Below the pieces are notes generated by a model. The model searched no databases. It was not told where the DNA came from and worked only from the letters and a program-made list of their open reading frames with translations. 18,899 nucleotides of DNA from NCBI GenBank assembly GCA_024409185.1, contig JAKSUD010000002.1, positions 1-18,899 on the forward strand. Reading direction: 5' to 3'. Positions within the stretch are counted from its first letter, which is position 1, and every line of letters starts with the position of its first letter. Made by a program: the position numbers and the translations under genes. This DNA comes from an archaeon. GTDB taxonomy: Archaea > Methanobacteriota > Methanobacteria > Methanobacteriales > Methanobacteriaceae. Below are positions 9,143 to 18,235 of the stretch, piece after piece.

Positions 9143-10153
9143 TTATACACCTTGTTTAGAACTAGTACTAATGTAGTTTATTTGTGGTGCTACATCATCT
9201 GCTTTCTTAGGTCTCATAGCTTGTCTAAGGATAACTAATCTTTTAGTTGGACCTGGTAAGGAACCTTTTACTAATACATAGTCATTTTTGACTAAACCGT
9301 ATTTAATGAATCCTCCATCAGGGTTAACTAATTCTACTTCAGATTCGTTTCCTATTTTTAAGACTTTTTTGTTGAATTCAGTTCTTTTGTGGTATCCCAT
9401 TTGACCAGCTTGTGCAACAGTCCACATAGTTCTGTTAGGGGTCCATGGACCAATAGAACCTACGTGTCTACCTTTACCACTTCTGGTTGCTTTACCATAT
9501 TGAATTCTAATATTCCATCTTTTAACTACACCTTGGAATCCTTTTCCTTTAGTAGTTGCAATTGCATCTACATATTGGCCTTCGTTAAAGATATCACTTG
9601 CTCTTACTTCGTTACCTAATAATTCAAGTGCTGCGTTTAATTTTTCTTCAGCAGATTTTCCACCGATAGCACATTCAAAAATTTCAGGTTTTTTCTTAGG
9701 TACACTAGCCATTTTAGGGTTAGTATGTACTAAAACTTTAATGTCTTCAGTTTTTTCTAAAGCATCTTGTATTTTTGCAATAGCATTAGATTTATCGTAG
9801 TCTTTAGGAAGAGTAATTTTCCTAGAGAGTTCTTCATCTAAATTATCTGCAATAACTTCAGTGATAACTTTAAGTCCGTGTGCAGTTTTTTCGTATGATC
9901 TTATCCCCATTACTACAAGGGGTGGTACTTCCAAAACAGTGCATGGAGTGAATACTTCCATTCCGCTAGTAGGAGAGTTTTTATCATTGTCTACTACCAT
10001 AGCGTGAGTCATACCGACTTTATAACCAGCAAGACCCAAAAGTTTTGGTTCTTCATTACTTGGCCAAGATTTGATTCTAGGAGTTTCTTTAGCTACTCTC
10101 TTACGAGGGCTGAATGCTACAGAACCTTTTCTTGGTTGGTGATGTCTTACCAT
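9143..10153 (-). CDS. rpl3: Large ribosomal subunit protein L3 (uL3)
   Basis: The 336-residue product begins MVRHHQPRKGSVAFSPRKR and contains LGLAGYKVGMTHAMVVD and GKGFQGVVKRWN, as in archaeal L3. L3 is an early assembly protein near the peptidyl transferase centre and the factor-binding site. It is the first gene of the cluster. A strong SD (GGAGG) precedes the ATG, and about 140 bases of predicted leader made of four hairpins lie upstream. Confidence 0.98.
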   Translation of the reverse strand: MVRHHQPRKGSVAFSPRKRVAKETPRIKSWPSNEEPKLLGLAGYKVGMTHAMVVDNDKNSPTSGMEVFTPCTVLEVPPLVVMGIRSYEKTAHGLKVITEVIADNLDEELSRKITLPKDYDKSNAIAKIQDALEKTEDIKVLVHTNPKMASVPKKKPEIFECAIGGKSAEEKLNAALELLGNEVRASDIFNEGQYVDAIATTKGKGFQGVVKRWNIRIQYGKATRSGKGRHVGSIGPWTPNRTMWTVAQAGQMGYHKRTEFNKKVLKIGNESEVELVNPDGGFIKYGLVKNDYVLVKGSLPGPTKRLVILRQAMRPKKADDVAPQINYISTSSKQGV

Positions 10154-10195
10154 TATTTTCCTCCGTTAATTTATTTTCCGTAATTTAATTAGTTT

Positions 10196-10212
10196 AATCT
10201 ATAAAATAGATT
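10196..10212. repeat. Leader hairpin 4 (closest to L3)
   Basis: AATCTAT and ATAGATT form a perfect 7-bp stem with an AAA loop (UUU on the minus strand). It lies 43 bases before the L3 start codon. Confidence 0.7.
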
Positions 10213-10217
10213 TAATT

Positions 10218-10241
10218 TTCTGTAACAAATTGTTAACAGAA
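10218..10241. repeat. Leader hairpin 3
   Basis: TTCTGT (10218-10223) pairs with ACAGAA (10236-10241); inside, AAC and GTT extend the stem with one bulged base. This is an imperfect but long stem. Confidence 0.65.
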
Positions 10242-10248
10242 CTTTATT

Positions 10249-10265
10249 AAATCCCATTGGGATTT
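10249..10265. repeat. Leader hairpin 2
   Basis: AAATCCC (10249-10255) and GGGATTT (10259-10265) form a perfect 7-bp stem with a 3-base loop. It is the most G+C-rich stem of the leader. Confidence 0.7.
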
Positions 10266-10274
10266 TAAATAGCT

Positions 10275-10292
10275 AATCTACAACAGTAGATT
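10275..10292. repeat. Leader hairpin 1 (predicted 5' end)
   Basis: AATCTAC (10275-10281) and GTAGATT (10286-10292) form a perfect 7-bp stem with a 4-base loop. The predicted transcript start falls at its outer edge, so the mRNA may begin with this stem. Confidence 0.65.
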
Positions 10293-10312
10293 TAGTTTAA
10301 TCTGGCATACTG

Positions 10313-10321
10313 TTTTTATAA
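10313..10321 (-). promoter_or_regulatory. TATA box of the L3 (ribosomal protein) promoter
   Basis: On the minus strand the site reads TTATAAAAA, a good archaeal TATA box, 160 bases upstream of the L3 ATG. Two 17-bp direct repeats lie immediately upstream of it. Other TATA-like sites further away (for example near 10460-10470) are possible alternatives. Confidence 0.55.
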
Positions 10322-10328
10322 TACATAC

Positions 10329-10345
10329 ATGTATCAACAGCAAAG
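10329..10345. repeat. 17-bp direct repeat, promoter-proximal copy
   Basis: ATGTATCAACAGCAAAG, read on the plus strand, is repeated exactly at 10370-10386. This copy starts 7 bases upstream of the proposed L3 TATA box. It may be a binding site for a transcription activator or chromatin protein. Confidence 0.6.
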
Positions 10346-10369
10346 CAAAGACACATGTTCATATCTTTA

Positions 10370-10386
10370 ATGTATCAACAGCAAAG
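10370..10386. repeat. 17-bp direct repeat, promoter-distal copy
   Basis: Exact copy of 10329-10345. The spacing is 41 bp, close to four turns of B-DNA, so proteins on both copies would face the same side. A 12-bp perfect palindrome (AATACATGTATT, 10391-10402) follows just beyond, and its 10-bp core recurs at 10325-10334. Confidence 0.6.
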
Positions 10387-10504
10387 GCCAAATACATGTA
10401 TTTAAACAGCATCCAAGCTAAATAAGCTAGATAAACATGAAAACAAGCAAATTAACACAATATAAAAATAAATTTATTCAATTTTAGTAAAATTTACATA
10501 CTCC

Positions 10505-10523
10505 AGTCTAGGAAGACCAGACT
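10505..10523. repeat. Hairpin with bulged base
   Basis: AGTCT (10505-10509) and AGACT (10519-10523) pair, and GG/CC extend the stem past one bulged A to a 4-base loop. It lies between the candidate RNA terminator and the L3 promoter region. No function can be assigned. Confidence 0.5.
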
Positions 10524-10528
10524 TGAAT

Positions 10529-10547
10529 AAAAAGCTAGGCATCTAGC
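10529..10547 (-). terminator. Candidate terminator of the intergenic RNA
   Basis: On the minus strand GCTAG and CTAGC form a perfect 5-bp stem with a 4-base loop, followed at once by T5. Archaeal termination mainly needs a U-tract; the hairpin plus U5 fits the 3' end of the candidate RNA at 10529-10718. Confidence 0.45.
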
Positions 10548-10631
10548 ATTTATAGAAGTTAATACTTGTTAAAATTTACTTTTCAAGGATTTCAAATGAG
10601 AGTGTCTAATTCCCTGGAAATAAAATTTCCA

Positions 10632-10654
10632 ATTAAGAGTGTCTAATTCTTAAT
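10632..10654. repeat. Shared-loop hairpin A
   Basis: ATTAAG (10632-10637) and CTTAAT (10649-10654) pair around an 11-base loop, AGTGTCTAATT on the plus strand. The loop is the same as the copy at 10601-10611 and differs from hairpin B in one base. Confidence 0.75.
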
Positions 10655-10659
10655 ATTAT

Positions 10660-10682
10660 CTTCGTAGTGTCTATTTACGAAG
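10660..10682. repeat. Shared-loop hairpin B
   Basis: CTTCGT (10660-10665) and ACGAAG (10677-10682) pair around an 11-base loop, AGTGTCTATTT on the plus strand. The stem shares little with hairpin A, yet the loop is kept. Confidence 0.75.
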
Positions 10683-10699
10683 GGAATCCCTGAAGCCAA

Positions 10700-10713
10700 A
10701 GCTAATAATAGCT
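10700..10713. repeat. Short hairpin near the 5' end of the candidate RNA
   Basis: AGCTA (10700-10704) and TAGCT (10709-10713) pair around a 4-base loop. It would be the first structure in the candidate minus-strand RNA. Confidence 0.45.
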
Positions 10714-10738
10714 AAAGCTAATCTATAATCTCTATATG

Positions 10739-10761
10739 TATTTATAAAATGTATTTATAAA
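10739..10761 (-). promoter_or_regulatory. Two TATA-like boxes before the candidate RNA
   Basis: On the minus strand TTTATAAA (10761-10754) and TTTTATAAATA (10749-10739) are both good TATA-like sequences. The second predicts a start near 10717. In a region this rich in A+T such matches are common, so the call is tentative. Confidence 0.35.
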
Positions 10762-10774
10762 TTTTACGTAAAAT

Positions 10775-10815
10775 AACGCCACGTAACAAGCGTTCATATA
10801 ATTTACCGCTATATG
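10775..10815. repeat. Two adjoining hairpins downstream of the SPOUT gene
   Basis: AACGC (10775-10779) pairs with GCGTT (10790-10794), and directly beside it CATATA (10795-10800) pairs with TATATG (10810-10815). They lie between the 3' end of the methyltransferase gene and the TATA-like boxes. Confidence 0.5.
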
Positions 10816-10822
10816 ATAACGA

Positions 10823-10846
10823 AAACTAATAATGAACTATTAGTTT
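10823..10846 (-). terminator. Hairpin over the stop codon of the SPOUT gene
   Basis: AAACTAATA (10823-10831) and TATTAGTTT (10838-10846) form a perfect 9-bp stem with a 6-base loop, the longest perfect stem in the region. It begins inside the stop codon of the upstream gene and is followed on the minus strand by TTTTCG, so it may end or stabilise that mRNA. The U-tract is short. Confidence 0.45.
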
Positions 10847-11657
10847 ACATGATATTGAAAATAGCTAAAGTTGAAATCACAGCTTCTTCAGTTCTTACAG
10901 TTTCAGTTCCTTGATTAGGAATTGTATTAAGACTAATAGTGTCCCACATAGAACTTTCAACATTTTCTCCAATTGAAGAGTAAGGGCCTCCAAAAAGGAT
11001 AGCAACATGTTTATAACTGTTAACTTTAGATTTCAAATCATCAAAAACAGAATCGATTGTATCTGCATATCTTGTTGTTTCTACAACAAGATCGGGATTA
11101 GTTAATTTTAAACTATTTCTAAGGCCTTTATTAGTAGATTCAGCCTTATATCCCCAGTAAATGTCATCTGGTTCATCAGGTGTGACTATTACTTCTTTAG
11201 CAAACTTAGTAATTTTAAAACTAAAAATTTTATTTACTGTAAGTTGCTCTTTACAAAATGCAAGTTTATCCATACCAATATCAACAAAAGTACCTTTTTT
11301 ATTCCTTTTTACAGTAAATCCTTGTCTGAAATCACCTAATTCTGGTTGTTCAGTAGGATGATGAGGAGCTCTTAAAGGAGGTAAAATTCCAACATGTCTT
11401 AATTCAGACTTAATAGGAATTGCCTTTTTCCTAAGATATTGAGGAGTATTCATATAATTTAAAACTTCTGCAATAAAATCTCCATCATTATTCTGTTTTT
11501 CATCAGGAATAGAAAGATCTTTATAAACAATAATTTGATTCACTCCGAAAACAGCTGCTGCACGACCAATTAAACCGACTTTAGAAGTCTTTAATTTTAA
11601 GTCTTTAGTTTCAGCTAAGAATGAATTTGGTATAAAGAGTGATACTTGATTTTGCAT
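10845..11657 (-). CDS. SPOUT-class RNA methyltransferase (COG2106/DUF171 family)
   Basis: The 270-residue product (MQNQVSLFIPNSFLAETKDLK; MNTPQYLRKKAIPI; LRHVGILPPLRAPHHP; CTD GTETVRTEEAV) matches the knotted methyltransferase family whose Methanothermobacter member lies next to L3 and has a known structure. The family has an OB-like insert (about residues 90-165 here) and a C-terminal trefoil knot that binds S-adenosylmethionine (LFGGPY at 221-226; PNQGTETVRTEEA near 247-259). The eukaryotic relative (SPOUT1/C9orf114) is linked to uridine N3 methylation of rRNA, so an rRNA target is likely but not shown here. The SD AAGGT precedes the ATG. Its place upstream of the ribosomal cluster is conserved, but a 690-base structured gap separates it from L3. 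Confidence 0.92.
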   Translation of the reverse strand: MQNQVSLFIPNSFLAETKDLKLKTSKVGLIGRAAAVFGVNQIIVYKDLSIPDEKQNNDGDFIAEVLNYMNTPQYLRKKAIPIKSELRHVGILPPLRAPHHPTEQPELGDFRQGFTVKRNKKGTFVDIGMDKLAFCKEQLTVNKIFSFKITKFAKEVIVTPDEPDDIYWGYKAESTNKGLRNSLKLTNPDLVVETTRYADTIDSVFDDLKSKVNSYKHVAILFGGPYSSIGENVESSMWDTISLNTIPNQGTETVRTEEAVISTLAIFNIM

Positions 11658-12057: not shown

Positions 12058-12743
12058 TTAGAAAGTTGTTGCTCTTAAGACAACTACTTTTACATCACGT
12101 GATTCTTCTCTATGAAAATCATATAATTTTGGTATTGGGAATTTATATACTAATTTATGAGTTACATCTGCACCTAAATCTATAAAGTAATCTATAACAA
12201 ATTCCTCTGTACTTGCCATATGGAATGAATATATCACATCAGCACTATTTACAGCAAATTCTATAAATTTTCTATCTATATTTCTAGTTCCTCTCTCTTG
12301 AGAACCAAATGGAGGATTTTGAATAAGAGTGTCTGCTTTATATCCTACAAATAATGAATCATCAAATACATCATTTTTATTATCAATGTTATTTAATAAG
12401 TCAGAAATACTATTAAATGAAGTGATGTCTGCAGTTATAAAATTTGCATTATGTACATCTATTCTAGTGAATATTTAGCTAAATCAATAGATTCTTTATC
12501 AATATCAATACCTAAAGAAGTCTTAGCACCTAAAAGTAAAGATCCAAAAGTAAAAATACCACAACCACATCCAAGATCAATTACAGACTTACCTCCAATA
12601 TCTCCTATAGAATAGGCATTCCAAAGTAAATCAGCTGCAATTGTAGCAGGAGTAGAATATTGTTCTAACTCAACTTTAGGATTTGGATGTTTAGGAACAT
12701 TCTCCAAAATCATTTCAAGATGTTTCTTCTTAGATATATTCAT
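12058..12743 (-). pseudogene. METTL5-like N6-adenine RNA methyltransferase, frameshifted
   Basis: The frame opens at ATG 12743 (SD AGTGAT) and encodes 94 residues with the S-adenosylmethionine site D56LGCGCGIF and GIDID (78-82), then stops at 12459. The protein resumes in the -1 frame from about 12462 for 134 residues to a stop at 12058: IDVHNANFITADIT, then NPPFG, the catalytic motif of N6-adenine methyltransferases, then EFAVNSADVIYSFHMAS. Joined, the product is about 228 residues, close to the archaeal METTL5-like family, which methylates an adenine in small-subunit rRNA in eukaryotes. No homopolymer marks the break. It may be a true pseudogene, a sequencing error or a lost segment: the join SLE-IDVHN is shorter than usual for the family. 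Function, if intact, would be rRNA modification. Confidence 0.8.
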
Positions 12744-14474: not shown

Positions 14475-14774
14475 TTAATAATTTACAAATACACAGTAAT
14501 TAGGTAATCTGTGTTTATTACTATAGAACGCTAAGATTTTAGCTAAAGAGTAAGAATATGGGTTGTATCCTATCTTTTTACCTCCATAAGTGAAGTATTT
14601 AGGAAGTGTTCCTTTAACTCCTTTCTTATAAAGAGTATTAACAACATTAAGATATCCTTTTTTCATGATTTTCTTAGATACTTTAGCATTATAAGCAGTG
14701 TATTTAACATTAAGTACTTTTACTTTAGTGCTTGTTTTTTTACCTGCTTTAATCTTTTTAATAGCCACAGTCAT
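14475..14774 (-). CDS. C-terminal fragment of the adhesin-like protein (wall-binding repeat), separate frame
   Basis: The 99-residue frame begins MTVAIKKIKAGKKTSTKVKV and ends with RLPNYCVFVNY. It continues the domain cut at the end of the upstream frame: GQLT there, followed here by codons for TYLMTVAI just before and at the ATG. That is the QFxYLMxxAI-like core of pseudomurein-binding repeats, as I recall it; the end (HRLPNYCVFVNY) resembles the beginning of another such repeat. The ATG shares its A with the upstream stop (TAATG), so re-initiation could produce it as a separate peptide. I see no SD other than in the preceding codons. Most likely it is the tail of one broken gene. It could otherwise be a -1 frameshift product. 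Confidence 0.65.
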   Translation of the reverse strand: MTVAIKKIKAGKKTSTKVKVLNVKYTAYNAKVSKKIMKKGYLNVVNTLYKKGVKGTLPKYFTYGGKKIGYNPYSYSLAKILAFYSNKHRLPNYCVFVNY

Positions 14775-17700
14775 TAAGTAAGTTGCCCGTGAGTTAATTT
14801 ATAAGATCCAACCTTAATAGTAGCAGGTAACTTCTTATTCTTTTTACTGGAAGCTTTTAAAGATTTAGCAGCTTTAATAATATCTGTTACAGTGACATAA
14901 GCCTGTTTAATAACCACTTTGACTGACTTAGAACTAGATAAGTAACTACTATCTCCTGCAAATTTAATTGTTGCAGTGTAATTTTTAACATATTTACTTG
15001 TAATAGCTAATTTAGCCTGACCTTTAGAATCAGTAGTTCTACTATAAGTTTTACCATTAAAGGTAATAGTTACTTTTTTACCAGTTAATATTTTACCTTT
15101 GCTGTCTTTTAATGTTACAACAAGATTTTTAGAAGTATAAGCAGTAATAGTTAAAGTAGAAGCACTTAAATTAGTAGCAACTTTAGGAACAGTTACAACT
15201 AAAGTAGAAGTATTCTCAGAAGAATTATACAAATCAGAACCACTATAAACAGCTCTAATAGTGAAACTACCAGTAACATTAGCATAATAAGTAAATTTAG
15301 CCAAACCATCAACTAATTTAACACTGCCAATTTCACCATCATTAACATAGAAAGTAACAAGACCAGAATCAGCAACAACATGAGCAACCAAATCAACAGA
15401 ATTATTCAACTTACAAGAAGCTTTATCAACAGTAACAAAACTATCCCATTTAACAGTGAAAGTAGTATTTACAGAATTTAATTCATAATTACTATCATTA
15501 TAATAAGCAGTAACAGTATAATTTCCTACTTTTAAGTCTTTAATGGTTAATTTAGCAACTCCTTCTTTAACTGTTGCAGTATAATTAGTACCATTAACAT
15601 TGATAATTACATTACCAGTTGCATCAGTTGGGACAGTTACATTAATAACTTCATCCTCAGCAACAGTAATGTTAATTGCAGAAACATTCATAAAGTAAGT
15701 GTTATTTTTACTTACAGTGAAGTTACATTTTGCAGAGGATTTAGTATTATTAAGATCTCCTGAATATTCAACAGTTAAATAATAAGTTCCAGCACTTAAA
15801 TTATTAATAACTAAAGTTAAATTACTAATATCTTCAGTAGTATATTCATTACCATTTAAGTAATAAGTAATATTTCCAGTACCATTAATAACATCAAGAG
15901 TTACATTAACAGTTACATCAGAACCATAACTAACATCAGAAGCACTGACAAATATAGTAGATTGACGTGCTTCAACATTTAAAGTAGCAGTAGCATTAAA
16001 AGGACAATAAATATCATCTCCAGAATAATAAATATTAATATTATGAACTCCCACACTTAAACCTGTGATATTAATAGAGATGGAACTTTCATTAATTATT
16101 TTTGTAAATACTTGACCATCATCTACTTTAAAAGTTAAATTACCAGTTACATCACTTGGAACAGTAACAACTACAGTAGCAGTTCCACCATAATCACAAT
16201 CACTAGTAATAATATTATAATCAACAAGACCTAAAGTAATATTTACTAAAACTTTATTTGTATTAAGACTAGTTAATAAATAATGGCCTTTTACATATGT
16301 GTCATTAAAACTATTATTTTTAATAGTAATCTCTTTAACACCAGCATCATTAATAGTCAAAATAACATTATAATCCATCATACTTGCACTTAAACTAGAA
16401 CCATCATTCAAAACAAAATCAACAAAATAATCACTACTAGAATTAGTAATATTCAAAACAACCCAAGAATTAAGAGTAACTCCAGAAACCAACCCCTGTG
16501 GAAAACTAGTGACATTATTCTGAAAACCAAAGAAATTAAAATCAGCATTAACAGTACCAGATTTTACATAAATATCCTTAACATTCTTAGAATTACCCTC
16601 AAAAATACAATAATTAATAGAACAATTATTACCAGAAACCAAGTGAATAGCACCAACAAATCCATTAGAACTACAATTTACAAAACTACAACCACTAACA
16701 GAACAATTATTACAAGAATTTCCATAAATAGCACCACCCTGATGAAATGCAGTACACTTCATAAAACTACAATTCACAACAGAACTATTATTAGAGTTCC
16801 AATAAATAGCTCCACCTTCATTATTAGTATAACAATTAGTAAAACTACAACCACTCACAACACCATTATTACCACTCCAATAAATAGCACCACCTTCACT
16901 ATCACATCTAGCATTTATAAAGTTAATTCCTTTAATTGTTACATTCTCACCAGTGATTCTAAATACTTTAGATACACCAGATCCATTAATAGTAATATCA
17001 TTACCTTCAATAATTACATTATCACCAATAATAATGCCCTCTTTAAAATCATCATCCCAATGCTTATAAAATTTATAATTATGATTTAAAATAACTGGAG
17101 AATTACTAGAAATAAGGTCATTTAAAGTTGTAAAACTATCTTCAATATATCCAAACTTAGCACTTGCTATTAATTTACCAGTATTACTACTATTCACTTT
17201 ATAAACACTATTAAGTAGATAAGTATCATTAAAACTATTATTTTTAATAGTAATCTCTTTAGCATCTGTATCATTAATAGTCAAAATAACATTATAATCC
17301 ATCATACTTTCATTTAAACTAGAACCATCATTCAAAACAAAATTAACAAAATAATCATTACTAGAATTAGTAATATTCAAAACAACCCAAGAATTAAGAG
17401 TAACTCCAGAAACCAACCCCTGTGGAAAACTAGTGACATTATTCTGAAAACCAAAGAAATTATAATCAACATCAAGCCAAGAATTATCAACATAAATAGC
17501 ATTACCATTACTTACATTATTTTCAAAAATACAATAAGTAACAGAACCATTTTCTTCAAAGTAAATAGCACCTCCACAGTGACCACTACAATTCACAAAA
17601 CTACAATTTACAACACCAGCATTTTCTTCATGGAAGAAAATAGCACCACCCTCATAATAAGCACTACAACCTACAAAACTACAACCACTAACAGAACCCC

Positions 17701-18235
17701 AACCATAAATAGCACCACCATACTTTTTAGACAAACAATTCACAAAACTACAATTCACAACAGAACCCCAACCATAAATAGCACCACCATTTTCTATTGA
17801 GTTACAGTTAGTGAATTTTAAATTTTTAATTGAAACTTGATTTGCATTAACATTAAATGCACGAGCAGTATTAAATCCATCTATAGTATGGCCATTACCA
17901 TTAATAGAAATATTTTTATTAATATTAATTCCACTTACAAAATCTTCATCATTATTAGAATCATACTTATAATCATACTCTAAAGTAATTTCATTAGTTG
18001 TACAATTAGAAATTGTTTCATTTAACTCTTTAAATGTTCTATACTCCTCTGATAAATTATTAATATCTTCGCTAACCCTCACATTATCAGTCTGAACATT
18101 TACATTATTTCTAACACAATCATCACTAATATCCTCTACACTTATATCTACATTATCCCCAGCACTTACAACACCTAGACTAATACAAAATATAGTAAAT
18201 AAAGATAAGATCATTAATATTTTATTAATTTTCAT
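14774..18235 (-). CDS. Adhesin-like surface protein with beta-helix and Ig-like domains (frame broken near the C-terminus)
   Basis: The 1153-residue product has a signal peptide (MKINKILMILSLFTIFCISL, cleavage probably near AGD at about 26). Two right-handed beta-helix blocks follow, at about residues 60-250 and 385-570, with repeated GGAIYxW and NCSFVNC coils of about 23 residues. About five Ig-like domains fill roughly 660-1110, rich in Asn-X-Ser/Thr sites; the last resembles bacterial Ig-like groups (KDSKGKILTGKKVTITFNGK). The end (VTDIIKAAKSLKASSKKNKKLP, key LP and KVGSYKLTHGQLT) is the first part of a pseudomurein-binding-type repeat that stops early at 14774. Such proteins are secreted and bound to the wall in Methanobrevibacter and Methanosphaera, where they are thought to mediate attachment. 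An SD (GAGG) lies 8-9 bases before the ATG. Confidence 0.85.
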   Translation of the reverse strand: MKINKILMILSLFTIFCISLGVVSAGDNVDISVEDISDDCVRNNVNVQTDNVRVSEDINNLSEEYRTFKELNETISNCTTNEITLEYDYKYDSNNDEDFVSGININKNISINGNGHTIDGFNTARAFNVNANQVSIKNLKFTNCNSIENGGAIYGWGSVVNCSFVNCLSKKYGGAIYGWGSVSGCSFVGCSAYYEGGAIFFHEENAGVVNCSFVNCSGHCGGAIYFEENGSVTYCIFENNVSNGNAIYVDNSWLDVDYNFFGFQNNVTSFPQGLVSGVTLNSWVVLNITNSSNDYFVNFVLNDGSSLNESMMDYNVILTINDTDAKEITIKNNSFNDTYLLNSVYKVNSSNTGKLIASAKFGYIEDSFTTLNDLISSNSPVILNHNYKFYKHWDDDFKEGIIIGDNVIIEGNDITINGSGVSKVFRITGENVTIKGINFINARCDSEGGAIYWSGNNGVVSGCSFTNCYTNNEGGAIYWNSNNSSVVNCSFMKCTAFHQGGAIYGNSCNNCSVSGCSFVNCSSNGFVGAIHLVSGNNCSINYCIFEGNSKNVKDIYVKSGTVNADFNFFGFQNNVTSFPQGLVSGVTLNSWVVLNITNSSSDYFVDFVLNDGSSLSASMMDYNVILTINDAGVKEITIKNNSFNDTYVKGHYLLTSLNTNKVLVNITLGLVDYNIITSDCDYGGTATVVVTVPSDVTGNLTFKVDDGQVFTKIINESSISINITGLSVGVHNINIYYSGDDIYCPFNATATLNVEARQSTIFVSASDVSYGSDVTVNVTLDVINGTGNITYYLNGNEYTTEDISNLTLVINNLSAGTYYLTVEYSGDLNNTKSSAKCNFTVSKNNTYFMNVSAINITVAEDEVINVTVPTDATGNVIINVNGTNYTATVKEGVAKLTIKDLKVGNYTVTAYYNDSNYELNSVNTTFTVKWDSFVTVDKASCKLNNSVDLVAHVVADSGLVTFYVNDGEIGSVKLVDGLAKFTYYANVTGSFTIRAVYSGSDLYNSSENTSTLVVTVPKVATNLSASTLTITAYTSKNLVVTLKDSKGKILTGKKVTITFNGKTYSRTTDSKGQAKLAITSKYVKNYTATIKFAGDSSYLSSSKSVKVVIKQAYVTVTDIIKAAKSLKASSKKNKKLPATIKVGSYKLTHGQLT
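16302..16541. repeat. Internal 240-bp duplication in the adhesin gene, copy 2 (C-terminal)
   Basis: Nearly identical to 17226-17465, offset 924 bp (308 codons). It encodes residues about 566-645 (FFGFQNNVTSFPQGLVSG onward). About 103 bases from 16436 to 16538 are identical to the other copy. Confidence 0.9.
17226..17465. repeat. Internal 240-bp duplication in the adhesin gene, copy 1 (N-terminal)
   Basis: Encodes residues about 258-337, at the end of the first beta-helix block; the other copy ends the second block. Each copy probably forms the capping or linker domain of one beta-helix. Confidence 0.9.
17690..17790. repeat. 69-bp period repeat in the first beta-helix
   Basis: A 32-bp segment at 17690-17721 recurs without change at 17759-17790. 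The 69-bp period equals 23 residues, one beta-helix coil carrying GGAIYGWGSV. Confidence 0.85.

Follow-up and report, generated by a model that had tools for sequence, protein, structure and literature searches.

Within the window, by which we mean the whole 18,899-nt stretch of Methanobacteriaceae DNA that was analysed, a structured element lies in the 691-nt intergenic region between a putative RNA methyltransferase gene, whose PF02598 family we take to be of the SPOUT class, and the gene for ribosomal protein L3. The order on the minus strand is methyltransferase, element, L3 and then L4, L23, L2 and S3 (Table 1). Elsewhere in the window and on the same strand, a 94-aa open reading frame (12459-12743) aligns with PrmA solely in its central part (positions 161-201 of 296) and is a fragment or a split gene, and a 1153-aa protein with Big_3_5 Ig-like domains (14774-18235), a putative adhesin-like surface protein, adjoins a 99-aa open reading frame with a pseudomurein-binding repeat.

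Table 1. Features of the L3 upstream region, in window coordinates
Feature	Position	Strand	Details
L3 ribosomal protein gene	9143..10153	-	PF00297; heads the cluster with L4, L23, L2 and S3
ATGTTTATCTAGC, conserved start of the L3-proximal part	10426..10438	-	most other genera have the related TTTATCTAG
Candidate terminator of the window	10529..10547	-	hairpin GCTAG/CTAGC and five U, 43 nt after the domain
Whole P0 and P1 domain	10577..10721	-	extent by covariance model R2
P1, 3′ strand	10583..10591	-	P1 pairing probability 0.97 in the whole-leader fold of the window
Loop hairpin 3	10598..10614	-	GGGA [ATTAGACAC] TCTC; same loop, 4-bp stem
Arm without the loop motif	10615..10631	-	TGGAAAT/ATTTCCA
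Loop hairpin 2	10632..10654	-	ATTAAGA [ATTAGACAC] TCTTAAT
Loop hairpin 1	10660..10682	-	CTTCGTA [AATAGACAC] TACGAAG
P1, 5′ strand	10685..10693	-	stem closing the multibranch domain
P0, 5′ hairpin	10694..10719	-	AGCU..UU..AGCUA / UAGCU..UU..GGCU
TATA box TTTATAAA of the predicted promoter	10754..10761	-	aligned with relatives; second copy 10741-10748
Putative RNA methyltransferase gene, upstream neighbour	10845..11657	-	PF02598

The preliminary description of this DNA had singled out two hairpins that lie 5 bases apart and have unrelated 6-bp stems (CTTCGT/ACGAAG and ATTAAG/CTTAAT) with 11-base loops differing in one base, AAATAGACACT at 10660-10682 and AATTAGACACT at 10632-10654, together with a third copy of the loop on a weaker stem. 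All three are present on the minus strand; with the A-U closing pair added, the first two are stems of 7 bp around 9-nt loops. In the dinucleotide shuffles used to gauge chance, a pair was defined as two 6-bp hairpins with loops of 8-13 nt that differ by at most one base. Such a pair arose in none of 1500 shuffles of the 190-nt stretch first proposed as the RNA and in 23 of 1500 shuffles of the 691-nt intergenic region (6 of 2000 when 9-nt loops only were counted), and a triple with 9-nt loops arose in none of 1500 shuffles of either. Because a pair becomes frequent once any loop of 5-13 nt is admitted (110 of 400 shuffles), the pair alone would be modest evidence, and it is the triple and the relatives that carry weight. 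The 190-nt stretch also folds better than its shuffles on both strands (z of -3.80 for minus and -4.02 for plus), so that folding energy alone does not decide the strand.

Of the 19 genomes that represent the genus, 13 have an assembled L3, and every one of these carries the element between the methyltransferase and L3 genes in a gap of 593-912 bases; the other six genomes gave no L3 match, and two of these carry a partial methyltransferase gene. The comparison set comprises 12 distinct sequences, two genomes (G002 and G015) being identical across the gap. Throughout this set a TATA box stands immediately upstream of P0, as exact TTTATAAA in eight sequences and as ATTATAAAT, one base different, in the other four. 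We infer that the box at 10754-10761 is used as a promoter; from its spacing, transcription is predicted to start at about 10728-10732. P1 is an unbroken run of 7-11 bp that encloses a domain of 116-189 nt, inside which lie one to four hairpins with a 9-nt loop (core URGACA) as well as arms that lack the motif. The loop is mostly A[AT]TAGACAC, with ACTAGACAT and TCTAGACAG/A as further variants and ACTGGACAT seen once. Since three of the 12 sequences (L043, L042 and L036) have a single in-domain copy, multivalency is not universal. L032 has a rebuilt P0 stem and, at the place of the motif-less arm of the window, a stem that carries another loop hairpin. Additional loop hairpins occur outside the domain, at -141 to -143 from the L3 start in L036-L038, at -283 in L034 and, as a match of a covariance model, at -160 in L042.

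Whole-leader folds predict loop hairpin 1 with a pairing probability of at least 0.90 in all 12 sequences and P1 with at least 0.93 in 10 of them, the values for P1 being 0.67 in L033 and 0.43 in L043; two of the four loop hairpins of L032 are not formed in its fold. Single folds of six relatives gave z values from -2.81 to -4.50. A switch between two folds, proposed earlier on the ground that a stem at 10616-10630 would compete with the third loop copy, is not supported, as both stems form together in the predicted fold.

Covariation among the relatives argues that this structure is conserved as RNA. Across the alignment of 12, 96.3% of the cells in P0, P1 and loop hairpin 1 are paired, against at most 55.3% with slid partners, and five pairs have changed on both sides, a number reached by 3 of 500 shuffles (mean 1.8); the count of further pair types is unremarkable, being reached by 94 of 500. 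In alignment A1 the P1 of G014 is shifted by one column, which counts against pairing. All cells of loop hairpin 1 are paired (100%), and three of its seven pairs have changed on both sides, and in an independent alignment fold 10 of 30 predicted pairs show a two-sided change in at least one sequence. A second alignment, A2, holds 20 distinct hairpins taken from 35 intergenic loop copies after duplicates were merged and six copies with stems shorter than 4 bp were excluded; its 46 doubly changed cells (shuffle mean 16.3) are partly due to this selection for stems of at least 4 bp. Uncompensated stem mutation with loss of the loop, the pattern that would speak against a selected RNA, was sought in the relatives and not found, yet the six short-stemmed copies have to be set against this. 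Among 140 stem cells read on the minus strand, G-U occurs eight times and A-C once, an excess that marks the minus strand, as supposed at the outset, as the RNA strand under selection. On this comparative evidence from sequence, the element appears to be a genuine structured RNA encoded by the minus strand, in the sense of L3, with a kept loop on changing paired stems as originally conceived. It has the position of a ribosomal-protein operon leader, upstream of a ribosomal-protein gene and in the same sense, and the conserved structure with compensatory changes of such a leader. The same data make it highly improbable that what look like hairpins are palindromes acting as DNA, whether operators or terminators belonging to the upstream gene. 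Palindromes would account for the folding of both strands and for the further perfect palindromes found upstream of the promoter, but operators keep the sequence of their arms, whereas here the arms vary yet pair and the loop is constant; the 8 to 1 preference for G-U over A-C and the covariation of the long-range stem P1 also tell against them.

The element appears confined to one genus and to one place in its genomes. Strong matches in a DNA search of 60 genomes fell in 13, all of the same genus and none outside it, and two weak hits (G000:C193 and G017:C42) have no stem of at least 4 bp. The covariance models for the loop hairpin (R1) and for the domain (R2) were trained on the very sequences that they find, the window itself belonging to the training set of R2. 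Run with strict filters on 138 genomes of the family and on 151 of the class, R2 returned the same 13, in each case upstream of L3, and found no copy away from L3 in the 151. R1 was used to score 150 candidates, out of 511-1498, in each of the 19 genomes of the genus. At E≤0.019 there were 22 matches, all upstream of L3 in the 13, followed by one at E 0.03 in G006 that lies elsewhere, and within the same candidates the motif was not found at other target genes, where a CsrB-like RNA would lead one to look for it. Applied to 41 L3 loci of other genera, R1 gave three matches, the best with an E value of 0.5. A genome-wide role for the motif was rejected, AWTAGACACT occurring 203 times in the 19 genomes against 229 times for its reversed control, and one of 25 other loop-sequence sites examined (30 loci fetched) has a 4-bp stem. 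A search of viral contigs with one strict pattern found no copies, and a search for 23S rRNA, which the element might conceivably mimic (at helix 93), gave a match in none of five genomes. The intergenic hairpin-pair test was positive in 8 of 12 sequences of the genus versus 4 of 33 in other genera, which shows that similar hairpin pairs occur elsewhere, e.g. those with RTATTGAAC loops in L056 and L060.

The constant neighbourhood also raises the question of the methyltransferase. Were the element a target or decoy by means of which this enzyme regulated itself or L3, the order methyltransferase, element, L3 wherever both genes are assembled and the retention of a U in the loop would be accounted for. 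We regard this as improbable, because other genera have the same gene order without the element; no substrate of the enzyme turned up in the analysis.

Several other hairpins were observed around L3, in this genus and beyond. Upstream of the promoter is a second family (10764-10786 and 10794-10816 in the window, minus strand) of one to three tandem 7-bp hairpins with the loop GCR plus 3-6 nt; their stems differ (TTACGTA, TTACATA, TCATGCA, TCATATA and others), and the 15 distinct members in the 12 sequences have 101 of 105 stem cells in Watson-Crick pairs. Just past the methyltransferase stop codon (about 10821-10847, minus strand), most relatives have a hairpin with varying stems and a kept AGTTCAT loop. 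In the L3-proximal part of the window, two 30-nt repeats that are 83% identical (10329-10358 and 10370-10399) form minus-strand hairpins with a shared TTTGCTGTT loop. A sister genus (L044-L053, L059 and L069-L078) has two hairpins of its own upstream of L3: TTTTTRGGACTCnCCYAAAAA, whose stem covaries and which lies close to a TATA-like box, and TAGTTGTAA..TTACAGCTA. The L056 and L060 sequences, from another genus, each present the common RTATTGAAC loop on two hairpins of different stem, also upstream of L3.

The RNA had been delimited, at about 190 nt, by TATA-like boxes on one side and a hairpin followed by five U on the other, all of which are present in the window. The upstream limit is supported by the TATA box in 12 of 12 sequences and the downstream one in part, by a U-tailed hairpin within about 45 nt of the domain in 10 of 12, but the hairpin of the window itself is not that of nine others, which have instead AACAAG/CTTGTT with U5-6 at 20-24 nt after the domain. 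L032 shows U5 but no local hairpin, and neither is found nearby in L033. Terminator-like sites number two in the window, above the shuffle mean of 0.1. The U-tailed hairpin, which is not the same one throughout the 10 sequences that have it, may mark the end of the RNA or be a place of regulated termination. It fits a separate RNA equally well. A close rival, to which we give appreciable weight as a possibility, is therefore an independent small RNA beside L3, about 170-240 nt long, that has a promoter and a terminator of its own and either titrates a loop-binding protein in the manner of CsrB or acts in trans. It would suit the TATA box directly upstream, the terminator-like sites in excess of shuffles, the repetition of identical loops and a possible promoter for L3 proximal to that gene. 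As to the latter, no common TATA box was found at a shared place between the domain and L3 in the 12 sequences, and a block rich in A and T that contains RGGAAA, a short distance ahead of L3 and common to many genera, could be a nearer L3 promoter. On the other hand, the element was never found apart from L3, no loop hairpins that it could compete with were found at other genes among the sites and candidates scored, some species have loop hairpins in the L3-proximal region too, one in-domain copy is all that 3 of the 12 sequences have, and two of the 12 are without a local U-tailed hairpin. It is the constant link to L3 and the loop hairpins near the L3 start that lead us to prefer a leader, or an attenuated leader. 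Two other proposals were discarded. In one, prompted by an alignment fold, GUUUUUCAYGUUU would sequester the L3 Shine-Dalgarno sequence, but it was the best partner in none of 12 leaders; the other was a leader peptide, no open reading frame of at least 12 codons being common to all 12 sequences. A 14-codon open reading frame at the last arm is common to five related sequences.

We therefore favour, at a confidence just short of even, a conserved RNA that regulates the L3 ribosomal-protein gene cluster in cis. Stems that are free to change, a loop that is held and a copy number that varies are the marks of a loop that a single partner reads, and the best reading of the element within this regulatory RNA is that of a multivalent binding site for one candidate loop-binding partner. 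The TATA box would drive its transcription, the RNA forming the opening segment of the L3 leader, and the partner, most simply a protein, would bind the exposed URGACA core, several copies of the loop giving avidity. Binding would change the expression of L3 and the genes behind it, by way of termination at the U-tailed hairpin after the domain or through the stability or translation of the leader. Because the site is found nowhere else, the partner most economically supposed is a ribosomal protein from the cluster itself, although this is a guess. A more elaborate version of this proposal, which we consider rather unlikely, is a multivalent RNA switch in which an RNA-binding protein not yet described, or a ribosomal protein with an additional function, reads the URGACA loop, displayed one to four times at the junction and at sites near the L3 start, and thereby sets termination or translation of the cluster. 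Since the loop stays constant as the stems and the number of copies drift, the array would, on this version, have evolved inside one genus.

To our knowledge, the regulatory RNAs known to act in cis in archaea are few, and the way in which these organisms balance the synthesis of ribosomal proteins is, as far as we know, mostly open. The element gave no Rfam 15 match, at the gathering score across the whole window or at E≤5 within 10100-10900, and searches of the open-access literature on archaeal ribosomal-protein leaders and on structured RNA in Methanobrevibacter turned up nothing on it. It thus appears to be undescribed, and would serve one genus of methanogenic archaea in controlling ribosome production. 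Present throughout a genus before the L3 cluster, and with a loop that is both repeated and invariant, such an RNA offers a bait for its partner and a control element that can be tested with reporters.

The S10 operon leader of E. coli is bound by L4. That leader lies upstream of a homologous gene cluster starting near L3, as the present element does, and is not known to have a repeated-loop architecture. In sponge RNAs of the CsrB/RsmZ type, several hairpins with unrelated stems reportedly show the same loop motif to one protein (PMC7652899, PMC5027483). The element resembles them in part, with one to four in-domain copies of its loop on unrelated stems and a single copy in 3 of the 12 sequences; its loop core is URGACA whereas theirs is GGA, and it is linked to L3 in every case, with no other motif-bearing targets found in the genomes. 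The closest archaeal case that we found is the autocontrol of L7Ae, which is reported to bind the leader of its own mRNA (PMC5539422; PMC6298567) at one k-turn that masks the Shine-Dalgarno sequence (PMC5539422). The present element is characterised by several 9-nt loop hairpins around a multibranch junction, and it lies hundreds of bases before the start codon, in one genus only. Like the L7Ae leader, it would put a structured RNA in the 5′ leader of an archaeal ribosomal-protein gene, and feedback control is the use that we propose for it.
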